From positions 1,860,001 to 1,924,000 of the forward strand of contig NZ_CP042582.1 in assembly GCF_008728835.1 (NCBI RefSeq): a DNA stretch of 64,000 nucleotides. The letters run 5' to 3'. Positions 4,403 through 9,481 of this stretch are shown here, in pieces; the first letter of the stretch is position 1, and the number at the start of each line of letters is the position of its first letter. The notes under the pieces are model-generated. The model saw only the letters and a program-made list of their open reading frames with translations, was not told where the DNA came from and made no database searches. The translations under genes were made by a program, and so were the position numbers. Origin of the DNA: Hypericibacter adhaerens. Its GTDB lineage: Bacteria; Pseudomonadota; Alphaproteobacteria; Dongiales; Dongiaceae.

Positions 4403-4984
4403 TCACCCCGCCGGCGCGGCCAGCGCCTGCTCGATCGCCTGGGTCAGCTTCGCGTCCGACGGCTTCACGCTGCTGGTGAACCAGGCCGCGAGCTTGCCGT
4501 CGCGTCCGATCAGGATCTTGTGGAAGTTCCATTTGGGCGCGCCCTGCGGGCCCGTCTGCTCGAGCGCCCAGCGATAGAGCGGGTGGGCCTTGGCGCCGAC
4601 GACCGTCTGCTTCGCCATGATCGGGAAACCGATGCCGTAGGTCGTCTCGCAGAAGCGCTTGATCTGGCTGTCGGCATCCGGCTCCTGCTCGCCGAAATCG
4701 TTGGCGGGCACGCCCAGCACCGCGAAGCCGCGGTCGCGATAGCGCTGCCACAGCGCCTCGAGCCCGCGATATTGCGGGGTGAAGCCGCAATAGGAGGCGG
4801 TGTTGACCATGAGCACGACCTTGCCGCGGAACTGCTCCGGCTTGAAGGCCGTGCCTTCGACGGAGGGCAGGGGGACCTTGCCCCAGTCGATGGGGGTCGG
4901 ATGGTCGGTGGTGCTGGTACCTTGGCCGCCGGTGATGCTGGTCATGATCATGCCTGCGAGCGAGAGCAGATGTCGGGGCTTCAT
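4403..4984 (-). CDS. glutathione peroxidase family protein, exported
   Basis: The 193-residue protein reduces peroxides with a thiol donor. The catalytic cysteine is C66 in Asn-Thr-Ala-Ser-Tyr-Cys-Gly; the remaining residues of the catalytic tetrad are Q100 and W152-N153 (Trp-Asn-Phe-His-Lys). The peroxidatic residue is Cys, not Sec, so the donor may be thioredoxin rather than glutathione. The first 30 residues form a short hydrophobic stretch after Lys-Pro-Arg, compatible with a weak signal peptide and periplasmic location. It is longer than the usual 160 residues because of that extension. Confidence 0.88.
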   Translation of the reverse strand: MKPRHLLSLAGMIMTSITGGQGTSTTDHPTPIDWGKVPLPSVEGTAFKPEQFRGKVVLMVNTASYCGFTPQYRGLEALWQRYRDRGFAVLGVPANDFGEQEPDADSQIKRFCETTYGIGFPIMAKQTVVGAKAHPLYRWALEQTGPQGAPKWNFHKILIGRDGKLAAWFTSSVKPSDAKLTQAIEQALAAPAG

Positions 4985-4994
4985 GCGGATCGCA

Positions 4995-5699
4995 TTATAG
5001 CCGGGATCGCGGCTTGCGGCTGCGTTTCCTGCGCACCGGACGCGCCGCGGCGGACGGCGCCGGCGGCTCGATCCGATAGGCGCAGCGCCGCTCGCCCGCC
5101 GCGAGACCCTCGCCGCTGATCAGATGCTGGGCCCGCTCGATCCTCACGCCAGGACCCAGCACGGCGCGGAAGAGCTGCAGCTCCGAGCGGCAGAAGCCCC
5201 GGCAGGCGGTGGCGGCGGCGCAGATCGGGCAATGATGCTCGATCAGCAGCCAGCCGCCATCGTCCGTCGCACGGATCTCGGCCATGTAGCCCTCGCGCGT
5301 GCGCTCCTGGGCCAGCCGCTGCAGCTTCGCCCGCAGATCGCCGGCGGGTGCGAGGGCCGCCTGATAGCGGCGGCGCTGCTCGGCCTCGCGGGCTGCGATC
5401 AGCCGGTCGAGCGCCTTGGCGCCGAGCTTGCCGCGGATGATGTCGATGAGCTCGACCGCGAAACGGTCATGGCCGTCCGGGAACTGCGCATGACCGGCCT
5501 CGCTCAGGAACCAGCTCAGGCCGGGTCGGCCGATCGCCCCCTTGGCCTCGCCGGTCTCCACCAGGCCCGCGGCACGCAGGCTTTCCAATCGCTGGCGGGC
5601 GCCCTGGGGCGTGACGTCGAGGGTCGCGGCGACGTCCACGGTCGAGATCGGTCCGCGGGTCTTGAGCAGCTCGAGGATGTCGCGGTCGCTGGCCGCCAT
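4995..5699 (-). CDS. SufR-like iron-sulfur transcriptional regulator
   Basis: The 234-residue protein has an N-terminal winged helix (Asp-Ile-Leu-Glu-Leu-Leu-Lys...Ser-Thr-Val-Asp-Val-Ala, then a recognition helix with Thr-Pro-Gln-Gly-Ala-Arg-Gln-Arg). A C-terminal region has cysteines at 157, 160, 166, 170 and 206 in a Glu-His-His-Cys-Pro context, with Cys-Arg-Ser-Glu and Cys-Ala-Tyr-Arg-Ile further on. These are the marks of the COG2345/SufR group, whose members bind an Fe-S cluster. The ATG at 5699 has AGGAAAG 7 nt upstream; an in-frame GTG at 5738 lies at the predicted transcription start and is less likely. A basic tail (Arg-Lys-Arg-Ser-Arg-Lys) ends the protein. It is divergent from the MFS gene across a perfect operator. 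Confidence 0.75.
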   Translation of the reverse strand: MAASDRDILELLKTRGPISTVDVAATLDVTPQGARQRLESLRAAGLVETGEAKGAIGRPGLSWFLSEAGHAQFPDGHDRFAVELIDIIRGKLGAKALDRLIAAREAEQRRRYQAALAPAGDLRAKLQRLAQERTREGYMAEIRATDDGGWLLIEHHCPICAAATACRGFCRSELQLFRAVLGPGVRIERAQHLISGEGLAAGERRCAYRIEPPAPSAAARPVRRKRSRKPRSRL

Positions 5700-5746
5700 C
5701 AGCCGGCTTTCCTGGGTCGGTCGCCTGGGGCAGGTCACCCGATGTC

Positions 5747-5776
5747 ATCCTAGTTTGACAACAAACTCGTTGTCAA
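5747..5776 (-). promoter_or_regulatory. candidate promoter of the SufR-like regulator
   Basis: On the minus strand, TTGACA (5776-5771) and TAGGAT (5752-5747) are spaced 18 bp apart. Transcription would start near 5740, about 41 nt before the ATG at 5699. The operator arms overlap the -35 box and the spacer, so the regulator probably represses itself. Confidence 0.5.
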
Positions 5777-5777
5777 A
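5754..5777. promoter_or_regulatory. SufR-type operator, CAAC-N6-GTTG core
   Basis: TTTGACAAC (5754-5762) and GTTGTCAAA (5769-5777) form a perfect 9-bp inverted repeat around a 6-bp centre. The inner part is exactly CAAC-N6-GTTG, the inverted repeat reported for cyanobacterial SufR. It sits between the SufR-like gene and the MFS gene and overlaps candidate promoter boxes on both strands (plus strand TTGTCA 5770-5775 and TAGAAA 5793-5798, spacer 17). A degenerate half-site, GTTGTT, follows at 5806-5811. Confidence 0.7.
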
Positions 5778-5825
5778 TGAACCGGCCCCCTTTAGAAACG
5801 AGAAAGTTGTTAAAGGGGAGAGAGC

Positions 5826-7229
5826 ATGGAACCGGCCGGCGCCGCCGCCGACCCCTATGCCGGGGAAGGCTGGCGCGAGATCCTGGGCCAGGGCCGCTGG
5901 GCGCCCTTCCTGCTGATCTGTTTCGGCATCTGGCTGCATGCGGCGGACGGGCTGATCGTGGTCACCACGATCCCGGCGATCGTCGCCGACATCGGCGGCC
6001 TCGCCTGGACCGGCTGGACCTTCGCGCTCTATCAGGTGGCCTCGATCGTCGCCGCCTCGCTGGGCGGCCTTGCCGCCTTGCGCTTCGGCATCGGCCGGGC
6101 CACGGCCGGCGCCAGCGCCGTCTTCACGATCGGCTGCGCGCTCGACGCGCTGGCGCCCGACATGGGCCTCTTCCTGATCGGCCGCCTGGTGCAGGGCCTG
6201 GGCGGCGGCGTGATGGTGGCACTGTTCCATGTCGCGGTGACCCGGGCCTTTCCCGAGCGGCATTGGACCCGGATCTTCGCCTGGGTCTCGGCCGTCTGGG
6301 GCGTCTCGGCGCTGGTCGGTCCCCTGATCGGCGGGCTCTTCGCCGAAGCCGGGCTGTGGCGCGATGCCTATTGGGCCTTCGCGGCCCAGGCGCTGCTGGT
6401 GACGATCTGCTCGCCCTTCCTGTTCAGCAACGTCGCGGGCGCTCCCCAGGGCCTGGAGCTGCGCGTGCCCTGGCGCGCGCTGGCGGCGCTGGTGCCGGGC
6501 GTGCTGGGCATCGCGGTCGCGAGCGTGGTCGATTCCGCGGGCCTGGCGGTGCTCTCGGTCGCCGTGGGTGCCGGTTTCCTCGCGCTCTTCTTCTATTTCG
6601 ACCGGCGCGAGCATTCGCCGCTGCTGCCCGAACGGTCCCTGTCCGAGGTGCCCGTGCGGTTCGGCCTGCTGATGGTGCTCTGCTTCGCGGTGGCGACCAT
6701 CTCCTTCAGCGTCTACGGCCCGCTGCTCCTGGCACAGCTCCATCATGTGAGCTTGATCCTGGCAGGCTACCTGATCGCGATCGAATCCGTCGCCTGGAGC
6801 GTCACGGCGATGATGGTCGGCTGGGTCCGGCCCAAGGGCGAGCCCCTCTGCATCAAGCTGGGCGCCAGCGTGATCGCGCTGGGTCTTCTCGGCTTCGCCT
6901 TGTCCGTCCCGCATGGGCCCATCTGGGCCATCGCGCTGTCTGCCGCGCTCCAGGGCGGCGGCTTCGGATTGGCCTGGGCCTTCATCGCGCGGCGCGTGGC
7001 GGCGGGCGCCATCGCGGCGGAGCGGGAGCGGGCGGCCGGCGCGCTCCCCACCACGCAGATGCTGAGCTATGCGATCGGCGCGGCGCTCGCCGCCATCATC
7101 GCCAACAGCCTGGGGCTCGAGTTGGCGACGCCGCCGGACCGGCTGCAGACGATCGGCTTCTGGATCTTCTTCGCCTTCCTGCCCTTGACCCTGCCGGGTT
7201 TTCGCGCGGCCTGGCGGCTCGCGCGTTGA
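5826..7229 (+). CDS. MFS transporter, drug-exporter type
   Basis: The 467-residue protein has about 12-14 hydrophobic segments spread over its length. It shows major facilitator features: a loop with Gly-Arg-Ala after segment 2-3, Gly-Arg-Leu-Val-Gln-Gly-Leu-Gly-Gly-Gly near residue 118, and a Gly-Pro-Leu-Ile-Gly-Gly motif C-like stretch near residue 173 that is typical of drug:H+ antiporters. AAAGGGGAG stands 6-7 nt before the ATG. It is divergently transcribed from the SufR-like regulator and shares its operator, so its expression probably follows Fe-S or redox state. The substrate cannot be read from the sequence; a cupin gene follows 150 bp downstream. Confidence 0.85.
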   Translation: MEPAGAAADPYAGEGWREILGQGRWAPFLLICFGIWLHAADGLIVVTTIPAIVADIGGLAWTGWTFALYQVASIVAASLGGLAALRFGIGRATAGASAVFTIGCALDALAPDMGLFLIGRLVQGLGGGVMVALFHVAVTRAFPERHWTRIFAWVSAVWGVSALVGPLIGGLFAEAGLWRDAYWAFAAQALLVTICSPFLFSNVAGAPQGLELRVPWRALAALVPGVLGIAVASVVDSAGLAVLSVAVGAGFLALFFYFDRREHSPLLPERSLSEVPVRFGLLMVLCFAVATISFSVYGPLLLAQLHHVSLILAGYLIAIESVAWSVTAMMVGWVRPKGEPLCIKLGASVIALGLLGFALSVPHGPIWAIALSAALQGGGFGLAWAFIARRVAAGAIAAERERAAGALPTTQMLSYAIGAALAAIIANSLGLELATPPDRLQTIGFWIFFAFLPLTLPGFRAAWRLAR

Positions 7230-7235
7230 GGCCGG

Positions 7236-7259
7236 CGACCGGAGAATCTCCTCCGGTCG
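7236..7259 (+). other. hairpin after the MFS gene
   Basis: CGACCGGAG (7236-7244) and CTCCGGTCG (7251-7259) form a 9-bp stem with a 6-nt loop seven bases after the MFS stop. No T-run follows, so it may stabilise or attenuate rather than terminate the transcript. Confidence 0.4.
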
Positions 7260-7379
7260 GTAACTTGACGCCGGCCCCGGCTTGGGCGCGGAATGGGCCA
7301 TCATTACCGGCCTTCGGCCCATGGCGTGCTTCCGCCGTGCCGGCCGGACGCCGGCCCCGAGCAGGAGAGAGCTCCATCC

Positions 7380-7769
7380 ATGAATGCCGATTCCGGAAGG
7401 CTGGCGGCGCTGCGCCGCATCACCAACATCAACGAGGCGCCCTTCGTTCCCGACGACCGCTATGGCGCGGCGGCACCCGGCTTCACCTGGCTGCCGCTCG
7501 ATTACGATAAGAAGACGGGCGACGGTTTCTTCCTGCTGCGCTTCGCGCCCGGCACCCGCTCCCTGCCGCACGAGCATAGCCACGGCGAATCCTTCCTCAT
7601 CATGGAGGGCGAGCTCCGCGACAGCGACGGCGTCGTTTTCCGTGCCGGCGATTTCGTGCGCTACGAGCCCGGCAGCAAGCATTGGAGCGTGGCGCCCGAG
7701 GGATGCCTGATGGCGGTCTTCCTGCGCGGCTTTAACCGCCGGCTGAATCCGGGTGAAAGCGAAGCTTGA
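7380..7769 (+). CDS. cupin-domain protein (ChrR-like)
   Basis: The 129-residue single-domain cupin has the metal-binding motif 1 region His-Glu-His-Ser-His-Gly-Glu-Ser-Phe near residues 64-72 and a motif 2 His in Gly-Ser-Lys-His-Trp near residue 100. The fold resembles the anti-sigma ChrR cupin lobe and small cupins that act as sensors or dioxygenase-like enzymes. AGGAGAG lies about 10 nt before the ATG. It lies between the MFS gene and the glutamate-synthase-like gene on the same strand, 47 bp before the latter, so the three may be cotranscribed. Confidence 0.8.
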   Translation: MNADSGRLAALRRITNINEAPFVPDDRYGAAAPGFTWLPLDYDKKTGDGFFLLRFAPGTRSLPHEHSHGESFLIMEGELRDSDGVVFRAGDFVRYEPGSKHWSVAPEGCLMAVFLRGFNRRLNPGESEA

Positions 7770-7816: not shown

Positions 7817-9481
7817 ATGAGTCTCGGAACGACGGCGGATTTCCGGGCCGCCGCCCGGCGGTTCAGCCTGTTCACCATCGTGCTGCTGCTGGCTTTGCTG
7901 AGCCTCCTCCTGGGCGTCGAGCTCGCCAAGGGCTGGCTCTGGCCGCTCGTCCTGCTGCTGCCGCTCCTGGCGCTGGGCGTCTGGGACCTGGTCCAGCCCG
8001 CTCATTCGCTCATGCGGAACTATCCGCTGATAGCGCATTTCCGCTGGCTGTTCGAGGAGCTGCGGCCCTACTTGCGCCAATACATCGTCGAGGACGATCA
8101 CTCGGGCAAGCCCTACAGCCACGACGAGCGCGCCCTCATCTATGCGCGCGCCAAGGGCCAGGAGGACCGCCAGCCCTTCGGCACCGAGCTCGACGCCTAT
8201 CACGGGGCCTTCGAATGGATGACCCATTCGATCGCGCCCAAGCCCGTGGTGACCGAGCCCTTCCGGATCAAGGTCGGCGGTGCCGACTGCAAGAAGCACT
8301 ACGAGGCCGCGATCCTCAACATCTCGGCCATGAGCTTCGGCTCGCTGGGGCCCAATGCGATCGAGGCGCTCAATTGGGGGGCCAAGCTCGGCGGCTTCTA
8401 TCACGACACGGGCGAGGGCGGCATCAGCCGCTACCACCGGATCCATGGCGGCGACATCGTCTATGAGCTGGGCACGGGCTATTTCGGTGCGCGCAACCCG
8501 AACGGCAGCTTCAGCCCGGAGCGCTTCGCCGAGCAGGCGCGGAACGACCAGATCCGCATGGTCGAGATCAAGCTCAGCCAGGGGGCCAAGCCCGGCCATG
8601 GCGGCATCCTGCCCGGCGCCAAGGTCTCGCCCGAGATTTCCGAGGCGCGCGGCGTCGCAGCGGGCGTCGACTGCATCTCGCCCAGCCGGCACACGGCCTT
8701 CTCGACCCCGGCGGAGATGATGGAGTTCATCGCCACCTTGCGCGAGCTCTCGGGCGGCAAGCCGGTCGGTTTCAAGCTCTGTGTCGGCCATCCGACCGAG
8801 GTCTTCGCCCTGGTCAAGGCGATGCTCAAGACCGGCATCAAGCCGGACTTCATCGTGGTCGACGGCAAGGAAGGCGGCACGGGGGCGGCACCGGCCGAGT
8901 TCTCGGACCATCTCGGCATGCCGCTGCGTGAAGGCTTGATCCTGATGCGCAACGCGCTGGTCGGCGCCAATCTGCGCGGCGAGATCCGGCTCGCGGCCAG
9001 CGGCAAGATCGTCAGCGGCTTCTCCATGGCGGCCAATCTCGCCATCGGCGCCGACTGGTGCAACGCGGCGCGCGCCTTCATGTTCTCGCTGGGCTGCGTG
9101 CAGTCGATGCGCTGCCACACCAACCGCTGCCCGACCGGTGTCACCACCAACGATCCCGTGCTGCAGCGCGGCCTCGTGGTGGCCCTGAAGGCGCAGCGCG
9201 TCGCGAGCTTCCAGCGCCACACCGTCGAGGCGCTGGCCGAGCTGGTCGCGGCCGCCGGCGTGACACACCCACAGGACCTGATGCCGCGCCATATCTGGCA
9301 CCGCCTCAACCCGATTGAGGTCCGCACCCTCGACCGCATCTATAATTTCCTCGAACCGGGCGTGCTGCTCGCGGCGCCCGATATGACGCCTTATGCCGAG
9401 GAATGGCGCGCGGCCGACCCGGACTCCTTCGAGCCGCGGATGGAGGTGGGGCCGCAGCGGGAAGCGACGGGCGCGGCTTAG
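7817..9481 (+). CDS. FMN-binding glutamate-synthase-like protein, membrane anchored
   Basis: The 554-residue protein has two hydrophobic segments near the N-terminus (about residues 18-35 and 40-58) followed by a domain like the FMN-binding central part of glutamate synthase. It has Ser-Phe-Gly-Ser-Leu-Gly, Gly-Glu-Gly-Gly-Ile-Ser, Lys-Pro-Gly-His-Gly-Gly and Asp-Gly-Lys-Glu-Gly-Gly-Thr-Gly-Ala. A C-x5-C-x4-C cluster (Cys-Val-Gln-Ser-Met-Arg-Cys-His-Thr-Asn-Arg-Cys) matches the 3Fe-4S ligands of that family. The amidotransferase domain of true GltB is absent, so ammonia or another donor, or an electron-transfer role, must apply. GAGGG lies 9 nt before the chosen ATG; an upstream TTG at 7766 overlaps the cupin stop and is less convincing. 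Confidence 0.82.
   Translation: MSLGTTADFRAAARRFSLFTIVLLLALLSLLLGVELAKGWLWPLVLLLPLLALGVWDLVQPAHSLMRNYPLIAHFRWLFEELRPYLRQYIVEDDHSGKPYSHDERALIYARAKGQEDRQPFGTELDAYHGAFEWMTHSIAPKPVVTEPFRIKVGGADCKKHYEAAILNISAMSFGSLGPNAIEALNWGAKLGGFYHDTGEGGISRYHRIHGGDIVYELGTGYFGARNPNGSFSPERFAEQARNDQIRMVEIKLSQGAKPGHGGILPGAKVSPEISEARGVAAGVDCISPSRHTAFSTPAEMMEFIATLRELSGGKPVGFKLCVGHPTEVFALVKAMLKTGIKPDFIVVDGKEGGTGAAPAEFSDHLGMPLREGLILMRNALVGANLRGEIRLAASGKIVSGFSMAANLAIGADWCNAARAFMFSLGCVQSMRCHTNRCPTGVTTNDPVLQRGLVVALKAQRVASFQRHTVEALAELVAAAGVTHPQDLMPRHIWHRLNPIEVRTLDRIYNFLEPGVLLAAPDMTPYAEEWRAADPDSFEPRMEVGPQREATGAA

Follow-up and report, generated by a model that had tools for sequence, protein, structure and literature searches.

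Why does a relative of SufR that has kept the matching cysteines and the operator nevertheless face an exporter gene, in a genome without a suf match? The question is raised by a stretch of 64,000 nucleotides of the Hypericibacter adhaerens genome (Alphaproteobacteria, Dongiaceae; assembly GCF_008728835.1, contig NZ_CP042582.1, positions 1,860,001 to 1,924,000 of the forward strand), which as a whole is called the window below. In this window a regulator gene is divergent from a gene for a transporter of the major facilitator superfamily (MFS), and a preliminary description, made without database searches, had noted the gene pair and a palindrome between the two genes. The analysis reported here indicates that the locus is probably an autoregulated divergent switch, in which a cluster-holding repressor, acting on two operator boxes, controls the MFS exporter as well as the regulator together with a glutathione peroxidase gene (gpx), and is released by redox stress. 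The features concerned are the following, in window positions.

4403..4984, minus strand: glutathione peroxidase gene (gpx), starting 10 bp past the stop of the regulator gene.
4995..5699, minus strand: regulator gene, 234 amino acids from the likely start ATG 5699, with a winged-helix N-terminus and a C-terminal part carrying C157, C160, C166, C170, C206 and H192.
5747..5776, minus strand: promoter-like site of regulator-gpx, TTGACA-18-TAGGAT, a consensus scan match.
5754..5777, strandless: predicted operator box 1, TTTGACAAC-N6-GTTGTCAAA.
5770..5798, plus strand: candidate exporter promoter TTGTCA-17-TAGAAA, found by eye, with its -35 inside box 1 and its -10 inside box 2.
5791..5814, strandless: predicted operator box 2, TTTAGAAAC-N6-GTTGTTAAA; the box centres are 37 bp apart.
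5826..7229, plus strand: MFS transporter gene, 467 amino acids, DHA2-like, resembling EmrB and SdrM under the cut-offs.

Judged from its sequence, the regulator is a five-cysteine sister of SufR and not SufR proper. It contains an HTH_20 domain (PF12840, 34.5 bits, over the gathering cut-off of 27) and matches the SufR_cyano model TIGR02702 at profile positions 4-206 of 208 with 118.9 bits (E 2.3e-34), below the cut-off of 178.8; a canonical cyanobacterial SufR (locus L127) reaches 311.9 bits. Of 81 aligned rows, 81, 81 and 80 have Cys at the SufR ligand positions (C157, C170 and C206), as does L127. C160 and C166 are Cys in 76 and 80 of the rows, and Ser and Phe in L127. The sister status follows from the score under the cut-off together with these two extra family-wide cysteines. 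The earlier characterization as a SufR/COG2345-like protein with several cysteines (the COG2345 label is assumed from there) was right about the relationship and the cysteines, and is refined here to that of a sister. One cyanobacterial genome carries both the canonical SufR of L127 and the five-cysteine kind. In a regulator tree built with a quick method and supported by the Shimodaira-Hasegawa-like approximate likelihood ratio test only, the exporter-linked regulators were clustered (9 changes compared with a shuffled mean of 20.2), without forming one clade, and the place of canonical SufR is unsure because of its very long branch. The structure model (predicted local distance difference test score 89.7) combines a winged helix with a mixed part at the C-terminus; no solved structure was convincingly related by sequence (best E 0.07). 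The open reading frame (ORF) list gave the gene as 4995-5738 on the minus strand, with GTG 5738 as start. ATG 5699 is the likely start, because the orthologue in genome G014 begins there, AGGAAA is found upstream and the promoter is positioned accordingly; GTG 5738 is disfavoured, since almost no leader would remain.

The 126-bp gap between regulator and exporter holds two boxes, where the preliminary description had implied a single operator. Box 1 (TTTGACAAC-AAACTC-GTTGTCAAA) is a 24-bp palindrome with perfect 9-bp arms and a 6-bp spacer, and its exact CAAC-N6-GTTG core at 5759-5772, reported earlier and verified here, has no second match in the window, where chance would give 0.25. The core of box 2, AAAC-N6-GTTG, differs from it by one base. 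Scored with a matrix free of exporter-linked loci, box 2 obtained 14.2 bits (p 0.0005, the floor of box scoring at 1/2001) and box 1 14.0 bits (p 0.001), and they are the only sites of at least 11 bits in the 64-kb window. Both boxes are present at the same spacing in the second genome of the genus, in which 1 and 3 of 18 arm bases are changed, all in positions that are free (nnn) in the consensus given below.

The 14-bp core is less specific than the complete box. CAAC-N6-GTTG occurs at 18 genomic sites, compared with 15 for a backwards control pattern, and two of these sites, 40 bp apart, are found where an ArsR-like gene begins that has a second ORF behind it. For these reasons the regulator cannot be identified from the core by itself: as a mark of SufR it is present and of little diagnostic value, and it was rejected as proof of a SufR operator. 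The full 24-bp pattern with at most 3 mismatches has 1 match in the own genome and 1 in the other searched genome of the genus (control 0). The strict consensus TTTNNNAAS-N6-STTNNNAAA, picked after viewing the family alignment and the window boxes, has 2 matches in the 5.87-Mb genome, both in the regulator-exporter gap (control 0). Recurrence of the palindrome under an unrelated regulator had been named beforehand as evidence against a dedicated operator; the core does recur in this way, at the ArsR-like gene, and the full-length box does not.

At the ArsR-like gene (L006 1501-1554; G000:C1:907211-907264) the CAAC-N6-GTTG pair lies just before or within the gene start, and its flanks are unlike a SufR-type box. 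We take the gene to be ArsR-like and the next ORF, of 184 amino acids, to be SRPBCC/AHSA1-like. A direct repeat was looked for at this site and not found. Another regulator family may use the core there.

The operator rule was derived from relatives of the regulator. A search within the bacterial family, positive in 15 of 17 genomes when that of H. adhaerens is counted, contributed 14 genomes, and species genomes contributed 63 loci. A search across the class gave matches at E 0.001 in 49 of 385 genomes, of which four were weak (E 6e-5 to 6e-4), and no more than 30 of its loci were fetched. Short regulators (L078, L093, L095), canonical L127 and repeat copies (L128-L135) were excluded before de-replication, by which 103 regulators of more than 190 amino acids were reduced to 80 at <75% identity. 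Promoters with fewer than 130 bases upstream (dyad scan) or about 100 bases or fewer (matrix tests) were dropped, leaving 78 each time. Dyads with at least 8/9 arm matches exceed shuffles at even spacers 2-12; spacers 6 and 10 were each seen in 15 promoters, where the shuffles gave means of 1.8 and 1.6 and never more than 4. Odd spacers gave 1-3 promoters, which is what a single dyad with its centre between two bases should produce. On average the arms match best at spacer 6, and the aligned best sites (n=15) read TTTnnnAA(G/C)-N6-(C/G)TTnnnAAA. A matrix made from 15 exporter-linked sites without the window gave p<=0.01 (floor 1/201 in this cross-group test) in 13/13 Rieske-linked, 16/17 VOC-linked and 12/26 other promoters. 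A matrix made from 14 Rieske-/VOC-linked sites did so in 19/22 exporter-linked promoters, the window among them. At spacer 6, 13, 16, 14 and 19 loci reached at least 10 bits, and at most 9 did so at any other spacer from 3 to 9. With GC-matched stretches from the same loci as control, the box was found in 49 of 63 promoters, the window not counted, compared with 4.8 expected.

Pairing of boxes is common as well: 32 of the 78 promoters have at least two, against 1.5 expected, with a centre distance of 33-51 bp in 28 of these 32. The position of the box follows the transcription unit, as can be concluded from Pseudomonas L036 and L037 (order MFS-regulator), where it precedes the exporter gene, and Nitratireductor L034, L040 and L041 (order regulator-MFS), where it precedes the regulator. 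When helix residues were compared with the C/G choice beside the spacer, the association of the strongest of 16 positions was reached by 1 of 500 shuffles and that of the next ones by 10 and 11; as the comparison ignores kinship and the making of 16 tests, no recognition code is claimed.

The genes that face the relatives are of several kinds. Of the 14 relatives from the bacterial family, 10 have a divergent MFS alignment starting no more than about 300 bp off and 3 have one at a distance of about 1 kb; 1 has none. For the 80 regulators kept, the label given to the linked gene was MFS in 23 (window included), VOC/glyoxalase-fold in 17, Rieske in 13 and YfbR in 4 (a name we presume), and superoxide dismutase, ferredoxin-NADP-reductase-like and SufA-SufB in 1 each, with 20 remaining without label. 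The labels were assigned by tblastn using query proteins picked from the same loci after inspection, and five examples were checked against Pfam; within the MFS label, two loci (L038 and L108) have other MFS types, and the link in L042 is weaker and distant. The pairing of a SufR-type regulator with an exporter, which had been put forward as a new use of the family, is supported computationally and is not a one-off: other Proteobacteria show it too, and some relatives have different genes opposite them.

Two of the partner groups deserve description in their own right. At L059, L080, L100, L104, L105, L112, L115 and L121, which belong to Alphaproteobacteria and Actinomycetota, a protein of about 440-600 amino acids is divergent from the SufR-sister regulator; it has an N-terminal Rieske domain (checked against Pfam in L104 only), and the long rest of its sequence matches no family above the cut-off. 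At L061, L063, L070, L072, L079, L090 and L092 (Planctomycetota, one Acidobacteriota) the divergent partner has a glyoxalase fold and about 125 amino acids where it was read, and the gap contains at least two boxes.

How the two boxes might work together is suggested by the promoters. The TTGACA-18-TAGGAT site of the regulator, of a kind found in none of 50 shuffles, is interleaved with box 1, and box 1 would cover the -35 and box 2 the -10 and start point of the exporter promoter, if the latter was read correctly by eye. A regulator dimer would bind the two 24-bp boxes between its own gene and the exporter gene and, as long as its [Fe-S] cluster is intact, would repress in both directions. 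Loss of the cluster or a change of its redox state, brought about by peroxide, superoxide, redox-cycling compounds or iron shortage, would release the regulator and switch on the exporter and the regulator-gpx operon together. The exporter would probably clear a toxic redox-active compound, and the gpx product peroxide. The signal is adopted by analogy from SufR, which is described as releasing DNA on cluster reduction, with targets rising under oxidative stress and iron limitation (PMC13421787). The gpx gene, overlooked in the preliminary description, probably belongs to the unit, and its co-transcription with the regulator is likely; the gene order and the 10-bp gap are kept in the second genome of the genus. 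The circuit would be local, no further target being found under the strict consensus. The locus may accordingly be a stress switch complete in itself, which has ceased to serve Fe-S cluster assembly.

Several observations weigh against this switch or against the generality of its operator. The exporter promoter was not returned by the consensus scan, which demands a T at the last -10 position, so that of the candidate promoters claimed earlier on both strands over the palindrome the minus-strand one is borne out by the scan and the plus-strand one was seen by eye only. No gpx was found beside the other kept regulators outside the genus. At 9 bits, 14 of the 78 promoters were without a box. At 11 bits the four YfbR-linked loci had none up to 1 kb from where the regulator starts, and L101-L103, L109, L110, L113, L087 and L136 had none at all. 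In the protein, the extra two cysteines and an altered spacing leave room for another metal or a disulfide. C157-X12-C170 has the C-X12-C spacing and C206 is the further cysteine near the C-terminus, while C170-X35-C206 compares, by eye, with X28 in L127; the fourth cysteine of the formula C-X12-C-X13-C-X14-C, as quoted from PMC8593673, has no counterpart in the regulator by eye.

These cysteines bear directly on an alternative in which circuit and operators are the same, and the cysteines bind zinc or act as a thiol switch responding to metal or electrophile stress. It draws on the fact that five near-invariant cysteines plus H156 and H192 exceed what SufR needs, that C160 and C166 have no Cys equivalent in L127, and that winged-helix repressors binding metals exist; ZitR is among the Foldseek rows, in which mainly the winged helix was aligned. 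However, conservation is among the highest at the three positions corresponding to SufR ligands. The corresponding cysteines of M. tuberculosis SufR, three in number and assigned here by spacing, are reported to be needed for function (PMC6034842). Moreover, relatives facing SufA-SufB, superoxide dismutase, a ferredoxin-NADP-reductase-like protein or a Rieske protein fit a redox or Fe-S signal better, and the zinc or thiol alternative is considered unlikely, though it deserves to be kept in mind. Clearly less probable still is a ligand-responsive drug-efflux repressor in the style of MarR and MepR, released by the exported compound and with cysteines of structural importance. Such repressors share with the regulator the winged-helix N-terminus and the divergent repressor-exporter layout, and divergent repressor-MFS pairs are common; they are released by ligands and are without a comparable cysteine-rich C-terminal region. 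The N-terminal part of the structure model indeed matches MarR, MepR and MexR chains in the PDB, but the Foldseek matches listed are confined to about residues 1-120, comprising the widespread winged helix plus, at most, the helix that follows. If a single exported compound were sensed, exporter, Rieske, glyoxalase-fold and SufA-SufB partners in separate lineages under the same box would also not be expected.

It may finally be asked whether the protein is a genuine SufR for Fe-S assembly that stands next to an exporter by accident, as its TIGR02702 score and the CAAC-N6-GTTG core might suggest. Against this, the score is below the SufR cut-off, the strict box is found nowhere else in the genome, and no match to SufB or the SufB/D core was obtained anywhere in it, by searches that were positive in 14/14 control genomes. 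The observation that no suf genes flank the regulator thus extends to the whole genome for SufB and the SufB/D core; a NifU_N/IscU-type scaffold was found. In the family search 15 genomes carry the regulator, and 13 of them likewise gave no match to the SufB/D core. We regard a genuine SufR as highly improbable. Among 50 genomes examined, of the 63 behind related loci, 31 have a sufB match, and sufB was near the regulator only in Chitinophaga L049 and L060 (with a Chitinophaga SufB query, many loci being short). Both loci have a five-cysteine regulator and SufB in divergent orientation, and in L049 SufA is placed between the two; they constitute a suf link for the sister family outside Cyanobacteria and Actinobacteria. 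The preferred reading remains that of a redox-released repressor serving the exporter and its own operon.

Beyond the exporter, three further features complete the neighbourhood.

7237..7258, plus strand: GC-rich hairpin without T-run, 3' of the exporter stop codon, which may end the transcript.
7380-7769, plus strand: cupin gene, downstream of the exporter.
7817-9481, plus strand: gene for a protein with a Glu_synthase domain, past the cupin gene.

The three ORFs described earlier beside the regulator (exporter, cupin and Glu_synthase protein) were confirmed. The exporter matches PF07690 with 92.9 bits, above the gathering cut-off of 33.4, and remains below the cut-offs for EmrB (TIGR00711, 63.8 bits; cut-off 230.2) and SdrM (NF040895, 91.8 bits; cut-off 550). 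The cupin and glutamate-synthase-like genes, presented previously as part of the exporter context, probably fall outside its transcription unit: exporter and cupin are separated by 150 bp containing the GC-rich hairpin. Folding of 7225-7300 gave a z of -2.27, with an equal or better fold in 5/200 shuffles. Synteny cannot separate these genes from the exporter unit, because 11 of 12 tested neighbouring genes are collinear in the second genome of the genus (a GNAT-like gene is without match). The Glu_synthase protein is of the stand-alone kind, its gene lies behind that of the ChrR-type cupin, and it has a C-x5-C-x4-C stretch, which we take to resemble the 3Fe-4S motif of glutamate synthase.

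Taken over all relatives, the data allow a broader proposal, to which we would give even chances: an undescribed five-cysteine sister family of SufR, present in at least 6 phyla by record titles, would constitute a portable redox switch, in which sensor and operator grammar (TTTnnnAA(G/C)-N6-(C/G)TTnnnAAA, boxes often paired 33-51 bp apart) are fixed and the target gene is exchanged. The targets would be MFS exporter, Rieske, glyoxalase-fold, superoxide dismutase, ferredoxin-NADP-reductase-like and SufA-SufB genes. If this is true, canonical SufR with its suf target would be a specialised branch of an older, general family sensing Fe-S stress. The operator rule would allow sequence-based prediction of targets for a little-studied family in many genomes and opens a testable route to the cargo of the exporter.

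The closest known system is SufR of cyanobacteria and actinobacteria (TIGR02702; Synechocystis sll0088, M. tuberculosis Rv1460). The regulator shares with it the winged helix, the C-terminal cysteine region with three cysteine positions, the CAAC-N6-GTTG operator, the presence of two operators in a divergent gap and, probably, autorepression. Binding of a [4Fe-4S] cluster is a further mark of SufR. Two sites were read by eye in the canonical sufR promoter of L127, TTTAGCAAC-N6-GTTGTCAAA and, about 40 bp from it, a further CAAC-N6-GTTG; the distance in the window is 37 bp. With the Rieske-/VOC-trained matrix the first of these scores 12.4 bits and is the only site of at least 11 bits in the 3.6-kb locus. 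In Synechocystis, SufR is reported to have two sites, which lie upstream of sufBCDS and of sufR, respectively (PMC6034842), and CAAC-N6-GTTG is given as the operator of SufR in Streptomyces avermitilis (PMC11995493). A review describes SufR as dedicated to Fe-S cluster assembly (PMC8593673). The regulator of H. adhaerens, in contrast, scores below the cut-off, has two extra family-wide cysteines, faces an exporter and has gpx behind it in a genome without a suf match. No link of SufR or COG2345 proteins to an exporter was found in the literature by title or start of the abstract, in a search that left subscription journals largely uncovered.

A comparable layout with an unrelated sensor is offered by SoxR, a regulator of the MerR type that holds a [2Fe-2S] cluster. 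No MerR model was among the nine Pfam matches of the H. adhaerens regulator at E 0.01, which places it outside SoxR. In Stenotrophomonas maltophilia redox-responsive SoxR controls the MFS pump MfsA, which is linked to paraquat resistance (PMC4411124). The likeness to the regulator-exporter layout described here is one of function and not of kinship, and the operator is different. Instead of activation by oxidation, derepression upon a change of the cluster would be expected here. The regulator-exporter pair of H. adhaerens may thus offer a second design, beside that of SoxR, by which an Fe-S sensor is connected to a pump.

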